Below, in pieces: positions 27,979 to 35,615 of a DNA stretch of 64,000 nt. How positions within the stretch are numbered: the first letter of the stretch is position 1; each line of letters starts with the position of its first letter. Where the stretch lies: contig JADFMN010000003.1 of the NCBI GenBank assembly GCA_022563855.1, positions 1 to 64,000 of the forward strand, given 5' to 3'. The position numbers were made by a program, and so were the translations under genes. The notes beneath the pieces are model-generated. The model was not told the DNA's origin, searched no databases, and worked only from the letters and a program-made list of their open reading frames with translations. Source of the DNA: Armatimonadota bacterium. Lineage in GTDB: Bacteria > Armatimonadota > Fimbriimonadia > Fimbriimonadales > Fimbriimonadaceae.

Positions 27979-28599
27979 TTAGACCGCCGCGGGGTCGGCC
28001 GGCTGCGGCTCTTCAGCGGAGTCGATCAAGTCCGGCTGCGGCTCTTCTGCGGAGTCTATCAAGGCCGGTTGCTCGGGCACGACGTCCGCTCCGACCGCAT
28101 TGACGTTCAGCTCGACCGTTGGGAGGTCTTCGATCTTCTCCAGATTGAAGAGGTGCAAGAACTGTTGCGTCGTGCCGTAGAGCACGGGGCGTCCTGGTGT
28201 TGATTTCCGTCCGACCTCCGCGATCAAGCGCCGGTCGATCAGGCTGCGAAGGCCGTAGTCGCTCTGCATGCCCCTGACCTCGTCGATCTCTGCGATCGTG
28301 GTGGGCTGTTTGTACGCGATGATCGCCAGCACCTCCATCATGCTGCGGCTGAGCTTCTGCTTTTGCGGCTTGAGGAACCGTGCGACGTACTCTGCCGCCT
28401 CCGGCTTGGTGCAAATCTGATACCCGCCGGCGATTCGCACGATTTGGAGGGCGCCCTCGTGGGTCAGCTTGGCGCCCAGCTTTTCAAGCGCCTCTTCGAT
28501 CTCATAGATCGGCATTTCCAAGGCGTCCGCTAACTCTTCCGGCGTCGCGGGAGAATCCGCGACGAAGAGGAGCGCCTGAACCTTCTCGATCAGCCTCAC
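27979..28599 (-). CDS. scpB: Segregation and condensation protein B
   Basis: The protein is 206 residues from GTG 28599, whose codon overlaps the scpA stop; GGAG lies in the scpA end. Two winged-helix domains are visible: IEKVQALLFVADSP to about 75, then SRSMMEVLAIIAYKQPTTIAEI and the typical GRPVLYGTTQQFLHLF. It works with ScpA and SMC in chromosome condensation. After about residue 175 there is an acidic tail with two copies of LIDSAEEPQP, not part of the usual fold. Confidence 0.9.
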   Translation of the reverse strand: MRLIEKVQALLFVADSPATPEELADALEMPIYEIEEALEKLGAKLTHEGALQIVRIAGGYQICTKPEAAEYVARFLKPQKQKLSRSMMEVLAIIAYKQPTTIAEIDEVRGMQSDYGLRSLIDRRLIAEVGRKSTPGRPVLYGTTQQFLHLFNLEKIEDLPTVELNVNAVGADVVPEQPALIDSAEEPQPDLIDSAEEPQPADPAAV

Positions 28600-29351
28600 G
28601 ACCGAATCTCCTTGCGGAAGAGCGCTTCTCCCTTGCGTAACTTGACGACAGCCTGGCCGAGGCGGATGAGTTCCAGCAGGGCGAGGAACCACCACACAAC
28701 GTCGGATCGCGTGAAATCGCCGACAACGATCTCGTCGAGCGATGCGAACTCCTCTGGCAACGCCAACATGACCACGACCATTTCCTCGCTCAGCATTCGC
28801 CGATCTTGAGTGAGGGCACCGTTGAGATCTGGCCTCGCGCGTTCGAGCAGGCGGACAAGCGCCTTCCCCAGGGCGTCGATCGTGACGCTCGACGAATCCA
28901 GCGGCATTTCAAACGTGTCGCCGCGGCCGTTGAGGCTGCGGAAGAACACGCTTTCTCGGCTCTCCTTGAGTTCGCTGAGGGCGGTGATCGCCGGCTTGAA
29001 CTCGTCGATGTACGGCAGGATCGCCTCGAGCACTTCGTCGCCCTCCGGCTCGTCGGACTCGTTCGGGAGCAAGAGCCACGCCTTCCTCTCAAGCAGATAT
29101 GACAGCGCAGCGAGCGCGACGGCGGCGCTCTCAAGATCGTGCTCGGCGTTTTCGAGCAGGTACGCAAAGTACGCCTCGCAGATCGGCGCTAGCGGGACGC
29201 CCAGCAACTCGATCTTCTGCTCGCGGACGCACTCGAACAGAGTTGCCAGCGAGCCGCGGAACGCGTCGCACTCGACGTGAATTTCCGGTGGGGCGTAAAA
29301 CCCCAGCGGGCCGAGCTTTTCGCGACTGACGATTTCAGAACGGTGTGGCAT
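28596..29351 (-). CDS. scpA: Segregation and condensation protein A
   Basis: The protein is 251 residues from ATG 29351 (MPHRSEIVSREKLG); upstream in-frame codons lack homology. The family pattern appears in ECDAFRGSLATLFECVREQKIELLGVPLAPIC, which binds the SMC neck, and in the C-terminal winged helix VVWWFLALLELIRLGQAVVKL, which binds the SMC head. It is translationally coupled to scpB. No clear Shine-Dalgarno is seen at this start, so another start nearby is possible. Confidence 0.85.
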   Translation of the reverse strand: MPHRSEIVSREKLGPLGFYAPPEIHVECDAFRGSLATLFECVREQKIELLGVPLAPICEAYFAYLLENAEHDLESAAVALAALSYLLERKAWLLLPNESDEPEGDEVLEAILPYIDEFKPAITALSELKESRESVFFRSLNGRGDTFEMPLDSSSVTIDALGKALVRLLERARPDLNGALTQDRRMLSEEMVVVMLALPEEFASLDEIVVGDFTRSDVVWWFLALLELIRLGQAVVKLRKGEALFRKEIRS

Positions 29352-29478
29352 TGACCAACAACTGCCCAGGCACCCCAACGCCGGACTAGCTAAACAACAG
29401 GTTATCATCCAGACGGTCCGACACTGTCCTTTGCCGCCGACAAACAGGCCTGTTTTTCCACTAGACCTCCATTCGCCG

Positions 29479-30207
29479 TCAGGTTCGCCTCGCATAGCCG
29501 AAGCCGACGAAACTGTCCGGCGCTCCGTTGGAGACCCCGAATCCGATGTGGAAATCCCATTGGGTGTCTCTGTCCGGCTGGAACGTCAGCCCGAAATGAA
29601 GGATGTGGCCTGGCCTCATGGTTTCGCCGAAGTCGACGACATGCTCAACGAACGCGCCGAGTCGGTCTCCAGCCGGGAATCCTACAACGAACGTGTGTCT
29701 TAAGTCGGTTCTTCCTCCCGGCCACTCTGCCTGAATCTGACCGCCGAACGAGGTGCCGCCGGACTCTGTGGCCCATATGAATGCTGCCATCGGCGTCGTA
29801 TGGGCTGCGCGCAACCCGGCATCGCCGGTACGGAACGCGACTTGGCCGAGAAGCGCGAACTCGACTTTCTCGTCACCGTTGAGCTCCTGCTTGAAACCGA
29901 TGGCAACGTCTCCAAAGCCGGTGACGTCGGTGCTGGTTCCGTTCACTGAGAGATGATTCGGGAGCGCGAGCCGCAACTCCGAACCGGGCTGGAACCCGTA
30001 CCGTATCAGGGCCTCGCCGATGCTTGTAGCGTTGCCTGCGCCGTTCAGCTCTTCGTAGGTCATGCCGGTCTCGAACTGAAGGGCACCGACGGGCACCGCG
30101 CGAGACCCCTCGGTGAAGTCAGGTCGGTCGGTAGAGATGGGAGCGGACTTGAGATCGCTCGCGGCGATTTGAAGTAAGAGAGCCCCGAGGCCGACAAAAG
30201 TTAACAT
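29479..30207 (-). CDS. Outer-membrane beta-barrel protein (phenol-degradation MetA-like transporter family)
   Basis: A 242-residue protein with a short signal sequence (FVGLGALLLQIAA), then ISTDRPDFTEGSRAVP. That opening and the regular alternating strands (GALQFETGMTYEE, GFGDVAIGFKQEL, FGGQIQAEWPGG) are typical of the small barrel family annotated as transporter or MetA-pathway protein. It ends in FVGFGYARRT. It implies an outer membrane. CAAAAT lies six bases before ATG 30207. It probably ends near the ACAGGCCTGT palindrome followed by T-tract downstream. Confidence 0.7.
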   Translation of the reverse strand: MLTFVGLGALLLQIAASDLKSAPISTDRPDFTEGSRAVPVGALQFETGMTYEELNGAGNATSIGEALIRYGFQPGSELRLALPNHLSVNGTSTDVTGFGDVAIGFKQELNGDEKVEFALLGQVAFRTGDAGLRAAHTTPMAAFIWATESGGTSFGGQIQAEWPGGRTDLRHTFVVGFPAGDRLGAFVEHVVDFGETMRPGHILHFGLTFQPDRDTQWDFHIGFGVSNGAPDSFVGFGYARRT

Positions 30208-30253: not shown

Positions 30254-30946
30254 CTATTCCGTCCGCCGATCCCGCAGGAACTTGGCGTGCGTGTCGAGGA
30301 ACACCCTGTTCCGCCCGCCGAAGTGAACGGCCTTGCCCCGGTACCGCTCCGGCGTGGAAGGTATCGTGCCGGGGAAGTACGGGTCGACTAGGATTTCAAC
30401 GTCCGACACCCCGTCCGGCACGCCGATGTACGGGCTGTTCGCCCTCTGCAAATCCCCCACCGCTATCTCCGGAGTCTTGCCCCATAGGTTGTCCAGCGGT
30501 ATCGGCGTGTCTGGCCTGTCGAACCGCCACATCCAGTAATTTGTGATGTTGCCGTTGAACGCGGCCTGCTCGACCTGTACCGCGCCGGAGAAAACGCCCT
30601 TCGCGGTCGGGCAGATCCAGATTTCATCGCTCTTGGCGTACGGACGGAGGACGATCATCGCCCACGCGCTTCTCGGATCCGATCTGGGCCACGTCGTCCA
30701 CGGCTTCCACCCTCCCGGCAGCGAGTTTTTCAGGTCGCGCCGATCCGGTAGCCGATCGTCGCTGTCGATCAGGTACAGCTGCAGCGCCATCCCGATCTGC
30801 CGCATGTTGCTCATGCAGACGGTCTGCTTGGCCTTCTCCTTGGCACGCGCGAAGACGGGGAACAGGATCGCCGCCAGGATAGCGATGATAGCGATCACCA
30901 CGAGCAGTTCGATCAAAGTGAATGCGGCGTTTCGTCGATTCTTCAT
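30254..30946 (-). CDS. Type IV pilin-like/DUF1559 protein with prepilin leader
   Basis: A 230-residue protein. The leader [20 protein letters not shown] has the prepilin peptidase site before F9 and Glu at +5, then [20 protein letters not shown]. The C-terminal block [18 protein letters not shown] is the usual His-Gly-Asn-Phe-Asp-His-Lys pattern of these proteins. They are numerous in Planctomycetes and Armatimonadota and are probably minor pseudopilins; the exact role is unknown. It lies next to the degenerate tRNA-Cys copy that borders the CHAT slot. Confidence 0.85.
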
Positions 30947-31002: not shown

Positions 31003-31071
31003 TGGAGGCGTAGAGCGGATTCGAACCGCTGAATGACGGTTTTGAAGACCTTTACTCCAGTTCGGACACAG
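31003..31071 (-). pseudogene. Displaced, degenerate tRNA-Cys 3' part
   Basis: Positions 31003-31044 are identical to 34993-35034, the 3' 42 bases of the intact tRNA-Cys. One mismatch follows at 31045 (31003-31050 against 34993-35040 is 47 of 48). Similarity continues weakly through the D-arm (CCAGTTCGGACAC against CCACTTGGGCAC) but the 5' acceptor strand is absent, so it cannot fold as a tRNA. Same orientation as the intact gene, 3,990 bases away. Confidence 0.85.
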
Positions 31072-31175
31072 GTTACTTAGTTTTGCATTTGAACCTGCGC
31101 TAATCAGTTGATTCCGGATGAAAGAATGAACGTGGAGTCGGCTGAATAGGGGAAGTCCCACTTCGACATGATTGC

Positions 31176-34100
31176 CTATCGCCAATCCCCGACGAGCATG
31201 AACGGCGCCCAGTGGAACGGGTGGCGCCATCTCGGGTCTTCGCGGATCGAGTCCATGGCACGCTGCAGGGCGACGTCCTTCGCCGCTCCTTTTATCAGCT
31301 CCGTGTAGAACGCGACCATCAGGGCCGACGTGCTGTCGTCCTGGACGCTCCACAGGCTAACGACGATGCTGCGCGCGCCGGCGTACTGCAATGCGCGAGT
31401 CAGGCCGATGACCCCTTCGCTTCTTGTAGTTTCTCCGAGCGCCGTCTCGCACGCGCTGAGCACCACGAGGTCCGCGTTCAGACGGAACCCCTCGAAGATC
31501 TCCCAGGCCTGCAGGAAGCCGTCGTCGCTCCCAGATGCCACGAGCGCAAGGCCGGACGCCAGCGGGTCCTCGTCGTCCAGCAGCCCGTGGCAGGCGAAGT
31601 GCACGATGCGCGCCCTCGGGGAAAGCTCCTTCGCCTCCGTCTCAGTCGCCATTGCGCCGAGACGGACTATGGCAGCGTCGCCGAACAGCGCGGCGATGGA
31701 CTCCACTTCAACCAGCGTGAACGGAAGGCGCGACAGTTCGCCCGACCTTAGACTGCTGCGACGAATGCGCGAGTCCTGATCGGCCTCTTCCTCGTTGCAG
31801 TTCCCTCCGTACGCCGGGTCGCCGAAGGCGAGAATCTCGTACTCGTACTCGTACTCCTTCGGGGATTCCTCCCACTGCAGGCGGGCCTCTGCGTAGACCG
31901 TCATCGAGACGATGGTGTGCAGAGGCTTCGCTTCTGTGAAGAAGCGGGCGTTCGCGAGGTCCTGCGAGCCTTCGGCGGGCGGTACGGGAACCGGCTTGCT
32001 GCCTCTTTGCCCTGCCCGCCAGGCGCCGCGCACGGTTTCTCTTTGCCTGGTCTTGCTCGCGCTGGGATCTTCGACCTTGGTGACCAGCGCCGCGAACGGC
32101 AGGTTGTGGAGCGGGCCGTCGGGGCAGATCAGGACGCGCTCGGCTCTTTCTACTTCGGATTCGGCAGGCCGGACGAGAAGGTCGTACAGGTCCTTGCCTT
32201 TTTGCACTACCGCTCCCCCCACGACGATCAAGGCCCTGAATTCTTCGACGAGCTGCTGCAATTCCTCTGCGCCGGCTTTCAAACGGTACAGCTTGAGGCC
32301 GTAGTCTTTCTCCTTCCGCGCTCCTTCTCCTCCCAGGAGGGTGAAGAGGTAGGTCTCCTCCCTGTCCACAAAATAGGTGAGCAGCAACGTTCCCTTGTCC
32401 AGCGCAGCTTGCGATCCCTCAAGGTCGAGCGGCTGCGGGTACTGGACCGCTGCGTACTTCGGCGACACTCTTCGGAACTCGGCGTCCAGCTCGCGCTGCT
32501 GGACCTTGAGGCTCAGTATCTCCGCCCGCAGCTCGTCCTCCCGAGCTGGGTCGGCTTTGTCTGCGAGCTTTGCGAGCATGGAATAAGCATTTGCTCTATT
32601 AGCATCAAGTTCGTTCTGTTCTTCGACCAGCACTACCGGCGCGTCTGCCGTGAAGTCCACTCCCCGTTCGGCGATCTGGTCCGCCAGGCCGCGCGCGCGG
32701 CTGCGCTCGACAACGTCGAAGGCCGTAGCTCCATCCGCCAACGCCACGTGCGCGCGGAGCAGTCCGGCATACGCATAGAATTGCCTGCCGAGAAACAACG
32801 AACGGACCTCAGCGGAGCGTATCGACCCACGTTGCGACTCGATGATCTCGATCGCTTGCGAGCAGTACTGGACTGCGTCAGCGAAGTTGTCTCGGTCGGA
32901 CGCGACAACGCCCAGGCTGTAGAGAATCGTGGCCACGTCGAGCGAATCCGGGGCGAGACGCTCCTCAATAGCCAGCGCGCGCTTGTGATACTCCTCCGCC
33001 GCCTGAAGGTCGCCACGGTCGTATGCTACCAATCCCAGGTTGTTGAGGCTCCCAGCCACGTCGAGCGAGTCGGGAGCGAGACGCTTCCTGATCCCCAGCG
33101 CGCGCTTGTGATACTCCTCTGCTGACTGCAGGTCGCCACGCCGCGATGCGACGCTTCCCAGGTTGTTGAGGCTAAGTGCCACGTGGAGAGAATCCGGAGA
33201 GAAACGCTCCTTTATTGCCAGCGCGCGCTTATAATACTCCTCGGCTGCCTGGAGGTCGCCACGGTCGTATGCTACCAATCCCAGGTTGTTGAGGCTCCCA
33301 GCCACGTCGTGCGAGTCGGGAGCGAGACGCTTCCTGATCCCCAGCGCGCGCTTGTGATACTCCTCGGCCGCCTGCAGGTCGCCACGGTCGTAGGCGACAG
33401 CGCCCAGGATGTTGAGGCTCATTGCCACCTCGAGCGAGTCCAGAGCCAGACGCTCTTTGATCGCCAGAGAGCGCCTGGAGTACTCCGCCGCCGCCTGCAG
33501 GTCGCCACGTTTGGATGCGACGTTGCCCAGGTTGTTGAGGCTCACGGCCACGCTGGGCGAGTCCGGAGCCAGACGCTCTTTGATCGCCAGAGAGCGCCTG
33601 TAGTACTCCTCCGCCGCCTGCAGGTCGCCACGTTTGGATGCGACGTTGCCCAGGTTGTTGAGGCTCATTGCCACATCGAGCGAATTGGGGGCCAGACGTT
33701 CCTTGATTTCCAACGCACGCGCGTAATAATTCTCCGCCGCCTGTAGGTTCCCTCGGCCACCTGCGGCGATCCCCAGATTGTTCAAGCTTGCGGCAACGGC
33801 GAGTGAATCGGGCGCTAGACGCTCCTCAATAGCCAGCGCGCGCAGGAAATACGAATCCGCTGCACCTGGGTCGCCACGGTCGTAGGCGACAGCGCCCAGG
33901 TTGTTGAGGCTCCCAGCCATGTCGAGCGAGTCCGGAGCCAGACGCTCTTTGATCGCCAGAGAGCGCCTGAAGTACTCCTCCGCCGCCTTCAGGTTCCCTC
34001 GGCCGCGTGCGGCGATCCCCAGGTTGTTGAGGCTCCCAGCCACGTCGAGCGAGTCGGGAGCGAGACGCTCCCTGATCTCCAGTACTCGCAGGAAATACGA

Positions 34101-34889
34101 TTCCGCTGCGCGAGGGTCGCCGCGCATGTCTGCGACAATGCCCACACTCGTTAACATGTCCGCTAACCAGAGTTCGTATCCCGCACCTTCACTTGCCTCG
34201 CAAGCTTGGTCGTACCACTCCTTGGCCGCGTCAAAATCGTTCAGGTTTTGGCTGCATCGACCGAGGGATGACAAAGTTTTCGATCGCGCCGCCATATCTC
34301 CGCTACCCGACAACAGTTCCAGGGCGGACTCGTTCGACTGCAGTGCCCCTTCCCAATTCCGCTGGCGGAACAAAATCCTCGCCATCCGGCGATATAGCCA
34401 GGACGCGGACGTTTTGTCGCCCTCTTTCTCGGCCGCTCCCGCAGCGTCGGTCCATTTCGCGACCGCCTCGTCCGAAGCGCCCGACTCCAGCAGCGTAGAG
34501 CCCTCGGAATACAGCTTCAGCACCTCGGGCGAGAGATCGGGCCACGCAACGATGCCCAAAGACCTCAGCGGCACCTCGAGGCTCAACGTCCCATCCCCGC
34601 GCACAAGCCGCAGCTTCACGCTCTCCGGACCGAACGTGTTCTCCTCCAGCGCGCGCAGCTTCGCAGGCGAGGTCAGCGGCTTACCGTCATACGTCATCAG
34701 CCGGTCCCCGGCCTCGATCCCCGCCTTCTCCCCCGCAGAGCCCGGCTCCACGCTCTCCACGATCAGCCCCTTCGTCTGGGCGTCCTGCGACGGCGTACCT
34801 CCAACCCAAGATGGGTCGGGCACCGATAAGAGCGCCCCCGCGAGGGCGATTCCGACAGCAAGCGTTAGCGGCGTTCGTAACATCATCAT
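31176..34889 (-). CDS. Exported PDZ-TPR-CHAT protease-like protein
   Basis: A 1,237-residue protein with a signal peptide (LTLAVGIALAGALLS, 8-22). A PDZ domain covers about 38-110 (VEPGSAGEKAGIEAGDRLM), then irregular TPRs and an array of about ten 42-residue TPR units (about 244-664) with consensus RGDLQAAEEYYKRALAIKE. The C-terminal CHAT caspase-like domain has the catalytic His in HFACHG (H1101) and Cys in VVLSACETALG (C1147). CHAT proteins are caspase/separase-like peptidases; TPRs normally bind a partner. Export would place it outside the cytoplasm, unlike CRISPR-associated TPR-CHAT. GGAGGG precedes the ATG. It is the only gene between tRNA-Cys and its displaced copy. Confidence 0.88.
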   Translation of the reverse strand: MMMLRTPLTLAVGIALAGALLSVPDPSWVGGTPSQDAQTKGLIVESVEPGSAGEKAGIEAGDRLMTYDGKPLTSPAKLRALEENTFGPESVKLRLVRGDGTLSLEVPLRSLGIVAWPDLSPEVLKLYSEGSTLLESGASDEAVAKWTDAAGAAEKEGDKTSASWLYRRMARILFRQRNWEGALQSNESALELLSGSGDMAARSKTLSSLGRCSQNLNDFDAAKEWYDQACEASEGAGYELWLADMLTSVGIVADMRGDPRAAESYFLRVLEIRERLAPDSLDVAGSLNNLGIAARGRGNLKAAEEYFRRSLAIKERLAPDSLDMAGSLNNLGAVAYDRGDPGAADSYFLRALAIEERLAPDSLAVAASLNNLGIAAGGRGNLQAAENYYARALEIKERLAPNSLDVAMSLNNLGNVASKRGDLQAAEEYYRRSLAIKERLAPDSPSVAVSLNNLGNVASKRGDLQAAAEYSRRSLAIKERLALDSLEVAMSLNILGAVAYDRGDLQAAEEYHKRALGIRKRLAPDSHDVAGSLNNLGLVAYDRGDLQAAEEYYKRALAIKERFSPDSLHVALSLNNLGSVASRRGDLQSAEEYHKRALGIRKRLAPDSLDVAGSLNNLGLVAYDRGDLQAAEEYHKRALAIEERLAPDSLDVATILYSLGVVASDRDNFADAVQYCSQAIEIIESQRGSIRSAEVRSLFLGRQFYAYAGLLRAHVALADGATAFDVVERSRARGLADQIAERGVDFTADAPVVLVEEQNELDANRANAYSMLAKLADKADPAREDELRAEILSLKVQQRELDAEFRRVSPKYAAVQYPQPLDLEGSQAALDKGTLLLTYFVDREETYLFTLLGGEGARKEKDYGLKLYRLKAGAEELQQLVEEFRALIVVGGAVVQKGKDLYDLLVRPAESEVERAERVLICPDGPLHNLPFAALVTKVEDPSASKTRQRETVRGAWRAGQRGSKPVPVPPAEGSQDLANARFFTEAKPLHTIVSMTVYAEARLQWEESPKEYEYEYEILAFGDPAYGGNCNEEEADQDSRIRRSSLRSGELSRLPFTLVEVESIAALFGDAAIVRLGAMATETEAKELSPRARIVHFACHGLLDDEDPLASGLALVASGSDDGFLQAWEIFEGFRLNADLVVLSACETALGETTRSEGVIGLTRALQYAGARSIVVSLWSVQDDSTSALMVAFYTELIKGAAKDVALQRAMDSIREDPRWRHPFHWAPFMLVGDWR
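32900..34160 (-). repeat. Tandem 126-bp repeats encoding TPR units
   Basis: About ten units of 126 bp encode 42-residue TPRs. Neighbouring units are nearly identical in DNA, for example the blocks around 33010-33100 and 33250-33340, or 33480-33560 and 33600-33680. This suggests recent unit duplication or gene conversion, and copy number is likely to vary among strains. Confidence 0.85.
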
Positions 34890-34992
34890 CCCTCCGCTAT
34901 CTGACGAATAAGATAGTCCATGCTGCGGGAGAAGTCAAGGGCACTTGAGCGTGAACACGCTGTCGACTATCCCGCAGTTCAGATTGAAATTT

Positions 34993-35068
34993 TGGAGGCG
35001 TAGAGCGGATTCGAACCGCTGAATGACGGTTTTGCAGACCGTTCCCTTAACCACTTGGGCACTACGCC
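34993..35068 (-). tRNA. tRNA-Cys (GCA)
   Basis: Acceptor strands GGCGTAG (35068-35062) and CTACGCC (35003-34997) pair fully. The anticodon loop CTGCAAA lies in an ACGGT/ACCGT stem. The T-arm is AGCGG TTCGAAT CCGCT. Discriminator U and CCA are encoded (34993-34996). Its 3' part is duplicated at 31003. Confidence 0.95.
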
Positions 35069-35159: not shown

Positions 35160-35615
35160 ATGGCGAAGCTTCATGAGTACCCTGTAAACGTCCAATGGAA
35201 CGGAGGTCGCGGGGGTTCCGGCAAAGTGGCGTCTGAGAGGTCCGGCGTCGGCTCTGCGCTGGCGGTCGGCTCCGAGTTCGGCGGCACCGGAGAGGGCACG
35301 AATCCCGAGGAGCTGCTCACGAAGGCGGTGGCTGGATGCTACGCCATGACGTTCGGGATCATCGCTGAGAACCGAAAGTTGCCGGTCGTCGGCATCGCTG
35401 TGGACGCAGTCGGCGAAGTGGAGGAGAACGGCCCGCAGTTCACCTACAAGAAGGTCACGGTTCGGCCAAAGATCACTCTGGCCTCGGACGCAACGGACGA
35501 ACAGGTCGAGTTGGCCGAAGACATGGCGCACAAGGCGGACATGTACTGCATCATCACCAATTCGATTCGCGGCAAGGTGGAAATCGAAGTCCAGCCGGTG
35601 ATCGTCAAGTCATAG
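35160..35615 (+). CDS. OsmC family peroxiredoxin
   Basis: A 151-residue OsmC-type thiol peroxidase, which reduces organic hydroperoxides. The two redox cysteines lie in AVAGCYAMTFG and ADMYCIITNSIRG, and NPEELLTKA is the family dimer motif. TAGACT lies six bases before the ATG, so the message is probably leaderless. The tpiA gene starts 13 bases after its stop and has its own GAAGGTG site, so the two may be co-transcribed. Confidence 0.9.
   Translation: MAKLHEYPVNVQWNGGRGGSGKVASERSGVGSALAVGSEFGGTGEGTNPEELLTKAVAGCYAMTFGIIAENRKLPVVGIAVDAVGEVEENGPQFTYKKVTVRPKITLASDATDEQVELAEDMAHKADMYCIITNSIRGKVEIEVQPVIVKS

Follow-up and report, generated by a model that had tools for sequence, protein, structure and literature searches.

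The window, which is the whole 64,000-nucleotide stretch of DNA analyzed here, contains a single tRNA gene, tRNA-Cys(GCA), as called by ARAGORN (Table 1). The earlier note on this DNA had reported that the 3' half of this gene is repeated at 47 of 48 bases, and BLAST and a repeat search confirmed the match, with a start-to-start distance of 3,990 bp and an islet body of 3,942 bp between the two copies. The sole mismatch lies at anticodon position 34 (GCA to TCA); positions 35 to 76 are identical through the CCA end, and 5' of position 29 the tRNA and the fragment have next to nothing in common. A chance match is excluded (E = 2e-19 against 0.95 Mb of the genome's own DNA). Since the fragment is non-functional yet still 98% identical, the event that formed the islet was probably fairly recent. 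We rejected the fragment as a second functional tRNA, or a tRNA with a UCA anticodon, since it has no 5' half and was called by neither ARAGORN nor Rfam. Querying the whole genome (3.18 Mb, 22 contigs) with tRNA-Cys returned one further match, 30 nucleotides of T-arm on contig C1, which was rejected as another tRNA-Cys fragment because it is tRNA-Thr.

The tRNA, the fragment and the CHAT gene between them all lie on the minus strand, with the fragment beyond the 3' end of the tRNA. The interval thus has the intact tRNA and the same-orientation displaced 3' fragment of a tRNA-targeted genomic island, as had been proposed, with a fragment that falls in the anticodon class. The ORF content also bore out the earlier claims of one gene and no integrase: the only credible ORF inside the islet is that of the 1,237-residue PDZ-TPR-CHAT protein, and the tyrosine recombinase genes present in the genome lie outside it. 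At the islet ends we found no arm-type repeats above chance, the longest shared word being 6 nucleotides, the same as in shuffled sequence. The flank on the prepilin side of the fragment reads GAACTTCCTCTC....

Table 1. Features of the tRNA-Cys locus and of two further tRNA loci in the same genome. Positions without a contig prefix are those of the window.
Feature	Position	Strand	Basis or remark
ScpA, ancestral downstream neighbor of tRNA-Cys	28596..29495	-	Gene order in relatives
Phenol_MetA_deg-family gene, between fragment and ScpA	29479..30207	-	Patchy in relatives
Type IV prepilin-like gene, immediately outside fragment	30254..30946	-	Orthologue elsewhere in relatives
Displaced tRNA-Cys 3' fragment, positions 29-76, 47/48, attR-like	31003..31050	-	BLAST and repeat search
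Islet body, intact tRNA-Cys to fragment	31051..34992	-	Missing from tRNA-Cys/ScpA junctions of relatives
PDZ-TPR-CHAT protein, 1,237 aa, signal-peptide-like N-terminus, His1101/Cys1147 dyad	31176..34889	-	Pfam
Array of 123-bp (41-aa) kinesin-light-chain-type TPR units within CHAT gene	32838..34121	-	Repeat family
Promoter-like TTGACT-17-TATCTT	34910..34938	-	Conserved at C2 paralogue; paralogue homology stops here
Intact tRNA-Cys(GCA), putative regenerated target, attL side	34993..35068	-	ARAGORN; Rfam tRNA, 65 bits
OsmC-like gene, ancestral upstream neighbor of tRNA-Cys	35160..35615	+	Gene order in relatives
tRNA-Trp	C5:186928-187003		53/53 copy (positions 24-76) 3,299 bp on
tRNA-Trp islet, 3.3 kb	C5:186928-190302 (L190 6929-10303)		Truncated tyrosine integrase and SagB-family dehydrogenase ORF
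tRNA-Asn	C2:94325-94400	-	
tRNA-Asn copy, 50/50 (positions 27-76)	C2:36580-36630	-	
tRNA-Asn island, 57.7 kb	C2:36580-94400 (L188, L189, L249)		

We surveyed the 20-kb 3' flanks of the ~45 tRNA genes located by Rfam in this genome, a span in which longer islands could be missed. Long 3' fragments lie downstream of three of the ~45, namely tRNA-Cys, tRNA-Trp and tRNA-Asn, and all three begin at the anticodon stem (positions 29, 24 and 27, respectively) and finish at the CCA end. In total, seven fragments are in place, four of them short, and every one is a same-strand copy of a 3' end; no 5', internal or opposite-strand fragments were detected in this survey. The tRNA-Trp islet carries repeats TTGTTCATACT (also given as GTTCATACT) near both ends, unlike the tRNA-Cys islet, and at 3.3 kb it displaces the latter from the rank of smallest island of its kind that the earlier note had given it. 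The tRNA-Asn island encodes an apparently full-length tyrosine integrase of 381 residues just inside its fragment end. Near that end are a large RecF/Rad50-like ATPase with a weak LmuB-type PADLOC match and a PD-(D/E)XK-like nuclease with a weak match to the Aga nuclease, which together with other ORFs look like a defense cluster. The word GAACCTAAAAC occurs 6 to 7 nucleotides past the CCA end both inside the tRNA-Trp islet (L190 7011) and outside the tRNA-Asn fragment (L188 2572), with three occurrences in 0.95 Mb against 0.45 expected; it is possibly a shared att arm or the trace of an older element.

The site was then compared with its counterparts in relatives; judging by the names given to homologous loci, the genome is one of the Fimbriimonas-like Armatimonadota. 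In nine genera (G002, G006, G009, G012, G015, G020, G024, G030 and G031), tRNA-Cys is followed by ScpA and ScpB, usually after a gap of tens to ~100 bases, and in several relatives OsmC-TIM-4HBT lies on the other side of the tRNA. ScpA is ~5.6 kb from tRNA-Cys in the present genome. No CHAT gene and no long same-strand tRNA-Cys fragment was found at the site in the relatives, and so the segment between tRNA and fragment is absent from the tRNA-Cys-ScpA junction of all nine genera. The earlier prediction of an empty site therefore stood as regards tRNA-Cys without the insert and failed as regards the gene next to it, which is ScpA and not the prepilin gene; the old tRNA duplication that it had feared, with CHAT gene and partial tRNA at all orthologous loci, did not appear, as no relative has either at the site. 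This comparison is of the tRNA-Cys-ScpA junction in other genera, with two extra genes here parting the fragment from ScpA, and the one same-genus genome (G001) is uninformative for the empty site, being a 68% complete assembly without tRNA-Cys and ScpB. Because the site in relatives reads tRNA-Cys and then ScpA, the prepilin and Phenol_MetA_deg genes are further lineage-specific additions outside the islet, and the junction gained DNA more than once. The Phenol_MetA_deg-family gene is present in 12 of 61 genomes, and no conserved neighbors of the prepilin orthologue were found in relatives.

A displaced tRNA end could also have arisen by tandem duplication of tRNA-Cys, with the CHAT gene inserted between the copies and the second copy then losing its 5' half. 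Intact tandem tRNA-Cys genes do occur at or near the locus in two other genera (G004/G033 and G006/G035; L067, L068, L073 and L074). However, the second copies there are full length, are 79 to 87% identical and are separated by spacers of ~30 to 130 bp, whereas the copy in the present genome matches at 98% along its 3' part, has no trace of a 5' part and breaks off where the tRNA-Trp and tRNA-Asn copies do, at the anticodon stem. We therefore consider an origin by tandem duplication unlikely.

By Pfam, the islet protein consists of a PDZ domain, ~9 TPRs encoded by 123-bp units and a C-terminal CHAT peptidase domain (PF12770; E = 5e-65, 220 bits against a cut-off of 24), and its residues His1101 and Cys1147 are invariant in 18 homologues. 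In an AlphaFold model of residues 700 to 1237 (pLDDT of 82), the best Foldseek matches were the TPR-CHAT protein Csx29, separase and SAVED-CHAT. By inspection, the N-terminal sequence resembles a Sec signal peptide. We infer that the protein is most likely an exported cysteine peptidase of the caspase/separase fold, acting in the cell envelope under the control of its PDZ and TPR modules. It shares with Csx29 (Craspase) the TPR and CHAT fold and the His/Cys dyad but is only ~14% identical to it in the fold alignment and differs in having a signal-peptide-like start and a PDZ domain and in lacking a Cas7-11 neighbor. The score with the Csx29 model NF041237 was 20.7 bits against a cut-off of 300, and the PADLOC match was to a generic TPR model and to no specific defense model; a defense label is thus unjustified. 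No Cas7-11 partner or defense gene was found among the neighbors scanned at 27 to 40 kb, which are housekeeping or unrelated genes. The role in cell death or defense that the earlier note had attached to this cargo is unsupported in view of these results, the signal-peptide-like N-terminus, the PDZ domain and the presence of the family in multiple copies in this genome.

A full-length paralogue of the CHAT gene lies at C2:14368-18087 and encodes a protein with 76% identity (dS of 0.45, dN of 0.15). The dN/dS of ~0.33 suggests that purifying selection acts, on average, on both paralogues. DNA homology between them is limited to the promoter and coding sequence, from the -35 box through the stop codon. 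Since this paralogue lies away from any tRNA and the homology covers promoter and coding sequence only, the CHAT gene itself may be native. The paralogue was rejected as a second tRNA islet because there is no tRNA or fragment beside it and it lies outside the tRNA-Asn island. It is flanked (L125 9218-19999) by genes for a 1,319-residue WD40-repeat protein and a Peptidase_C14 caspase-domain ORF, with another CHAT gene ~10 kb beyond. The islet gene has no foreign composition, its GC and GC3 being equal to those of its neighbors. CHAT genes are common in the order: matches to the protein, partly via the TPRs, were found in 54 of 61 genomes. A tree built from the C-terminal part places the islet protein and its paralogue in a tight pair, and the next shortest paths lead to CHAT proteins of another family (f2) and not of their own, the supporting forks being ~90 and unstarred. 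The earlier note had suggested looking for other CHAT genes next to tRNA 3' ends; we looked at ~20 CHAT loci of relatives and at the genome's own paralogue and found a tRNA 3' fragment beside none of them. No close relative of the CHAT protein was found in phages, viral contigs or plasmids: one phage match was weak (30%), the plasmid CHAT proteins were ~34% identical among the matches listed and all below 60%, and none of the viral contigs had the tRNA core. The CHAT gene may have entered from outside the lineage, with capture from the gene pool of the lineage itself an equal possibility.

These properties of the cargo bear on a further explanation, in which illegitimate recombination, rather than a site-specific event, moved the CHAT unit, and perhaps the prepilin and Phenol_MetA_deg genes, beside the tRNA, with template switching duplicating the tRNA end. 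Such an insertion or rearrangement would agree with the native composition, with a paralogue in the same genome that is homologous over precisely the promoter and coding sequence, and with the single genes gained at the tRNA-Cys/ScpA junction of relatives without fragments, namely a histidine kinase gene in G030, a PEP-CTERM protein gene in G012 and an LPG_synthase_C protein gene in G031. It leaves unexplained, however, the tRNA-class boundaries and the match to two integrase-bearing islands, and we judge it very improbable.

In our view the best explanation, and a probable one, is that an integrase, since lost or acting in trans, mediated entry at tRNA-Cys. The fragment has exact limits at the anticodon stem and the CCA end and lies on the correct side in the correct orientation, and the tRNA-Trp and tRNA-Asn pairs, which have the same fragment geometry, carry tyrosine integrase genes. 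From this geometry, the lineage specificity of the islet and the sister islands with their integrase genes, we infer a recombinase mechanism as follows. A small integrative element would have entered the tRNA-Cys gene when a tyrosine recombinase made a crossover within the anticodon loop. The attP of the incoming DNA would have carried a tRNA-Cys 3' half, so that integration restored a complete tRNA at one end and pushed the original 3' half 3,990 bp to the other. What is left would be a remnant with two att-like ends and one cargo gene that has a promoter-like site of its own, the integrase having been either deleted or supplied in trans by another element. The junction of an excised circle would be predicted to read CAAAACCGTCATTCAGCGGTTCGAATCCGCTCTACGCCTCCA between the two inner flanks of the islet. 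Against integrase-mediated entry stand the lack of an integrase and of arm-type repeats, the native GC and GC3, the 76%-identical paralogue away from any tRNA and the fragment-free gains in G012, G030 and G031. In addition, the mismatch at anticodon position 34 falls in the presumed crossover region, and, with two extra genes between fragment and ScpA, the precise empty site is unseen.

The islet fits a known kind, tRNA islands without an integrase, examples of which are decayed elements and CIMEs. Like the tRNA islands of Islander, it has an intact tDNA and a same-strand 3' fragment from the anticodon arm and exceeds 2 kb in length (PMC4383910). Islander requires an integrase, however, and its integrase filter would reject the islet, which passes the other filters quoted; anticodon-centered sites, to which it would belong, are given there as the larger class, with 2,083 of 3,919 islands (PMC4383910). 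CIMEs are cis-mobilizable elements that keep attL and attR without integration and transfer genes, and the islet likewise keeps att-like ends and has neither kind of gene (PMC5704250). It differs in having a single cargo gene, and any kinship to an ICE or IME, like any mobility, would be hypothetical. Partial tRNA copies left by integrating elements include a tRNA-Cys case in Pseudomonas fluorescens SBW25 (PMC9897764); the partial tRNA copy of the islet would likewise be the product of an integrating element, but the islands described there measure ~9 to 121 kb against ~4 kb here.

In a little-studied phylum, the Armatimonadota (relatives of Fimbriimonas), the locus cleanly illustrates, almost to the nucleotide, a tRNA islet that has one cargo gene and no integrase, and such an islet would escape island finders that require an integrase. 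Together, the Cys, Trp and Asn islands suggest that this lineage really does acquire genes through anticodon-class tRNA integration; neither a new mechanism nor a defense system is established. A bolder and unlikely idea is that single-gene CHAT cassettes are non-autonomous mobile islets, comprising two tRNA-derived att sites and an envelope protease gene, that are moved in trans by anticodon-class integrases, such as those of the tRNA-Trp and tRNA-Asn elements in the same cell.

Shorter tRNA copies were also observed in this genome. A 20-nucleotide exact copy of the tRNA-Phe 3' end lies at C2 ~309050 (L251 15731-15750), with tRNA-Phe itself at the edge of contig C15. Downstream of tRNA-Glu(CTC) on C1 (L256 19566-19977) are three copies, 19 to 20 nucleotides long, of its own 3' end at a spacing of ~110 bp, each followed by a hairpin-like stretch, an arrangement that we take to resemble the tyrT/rtT repeats of Escherichia coli.
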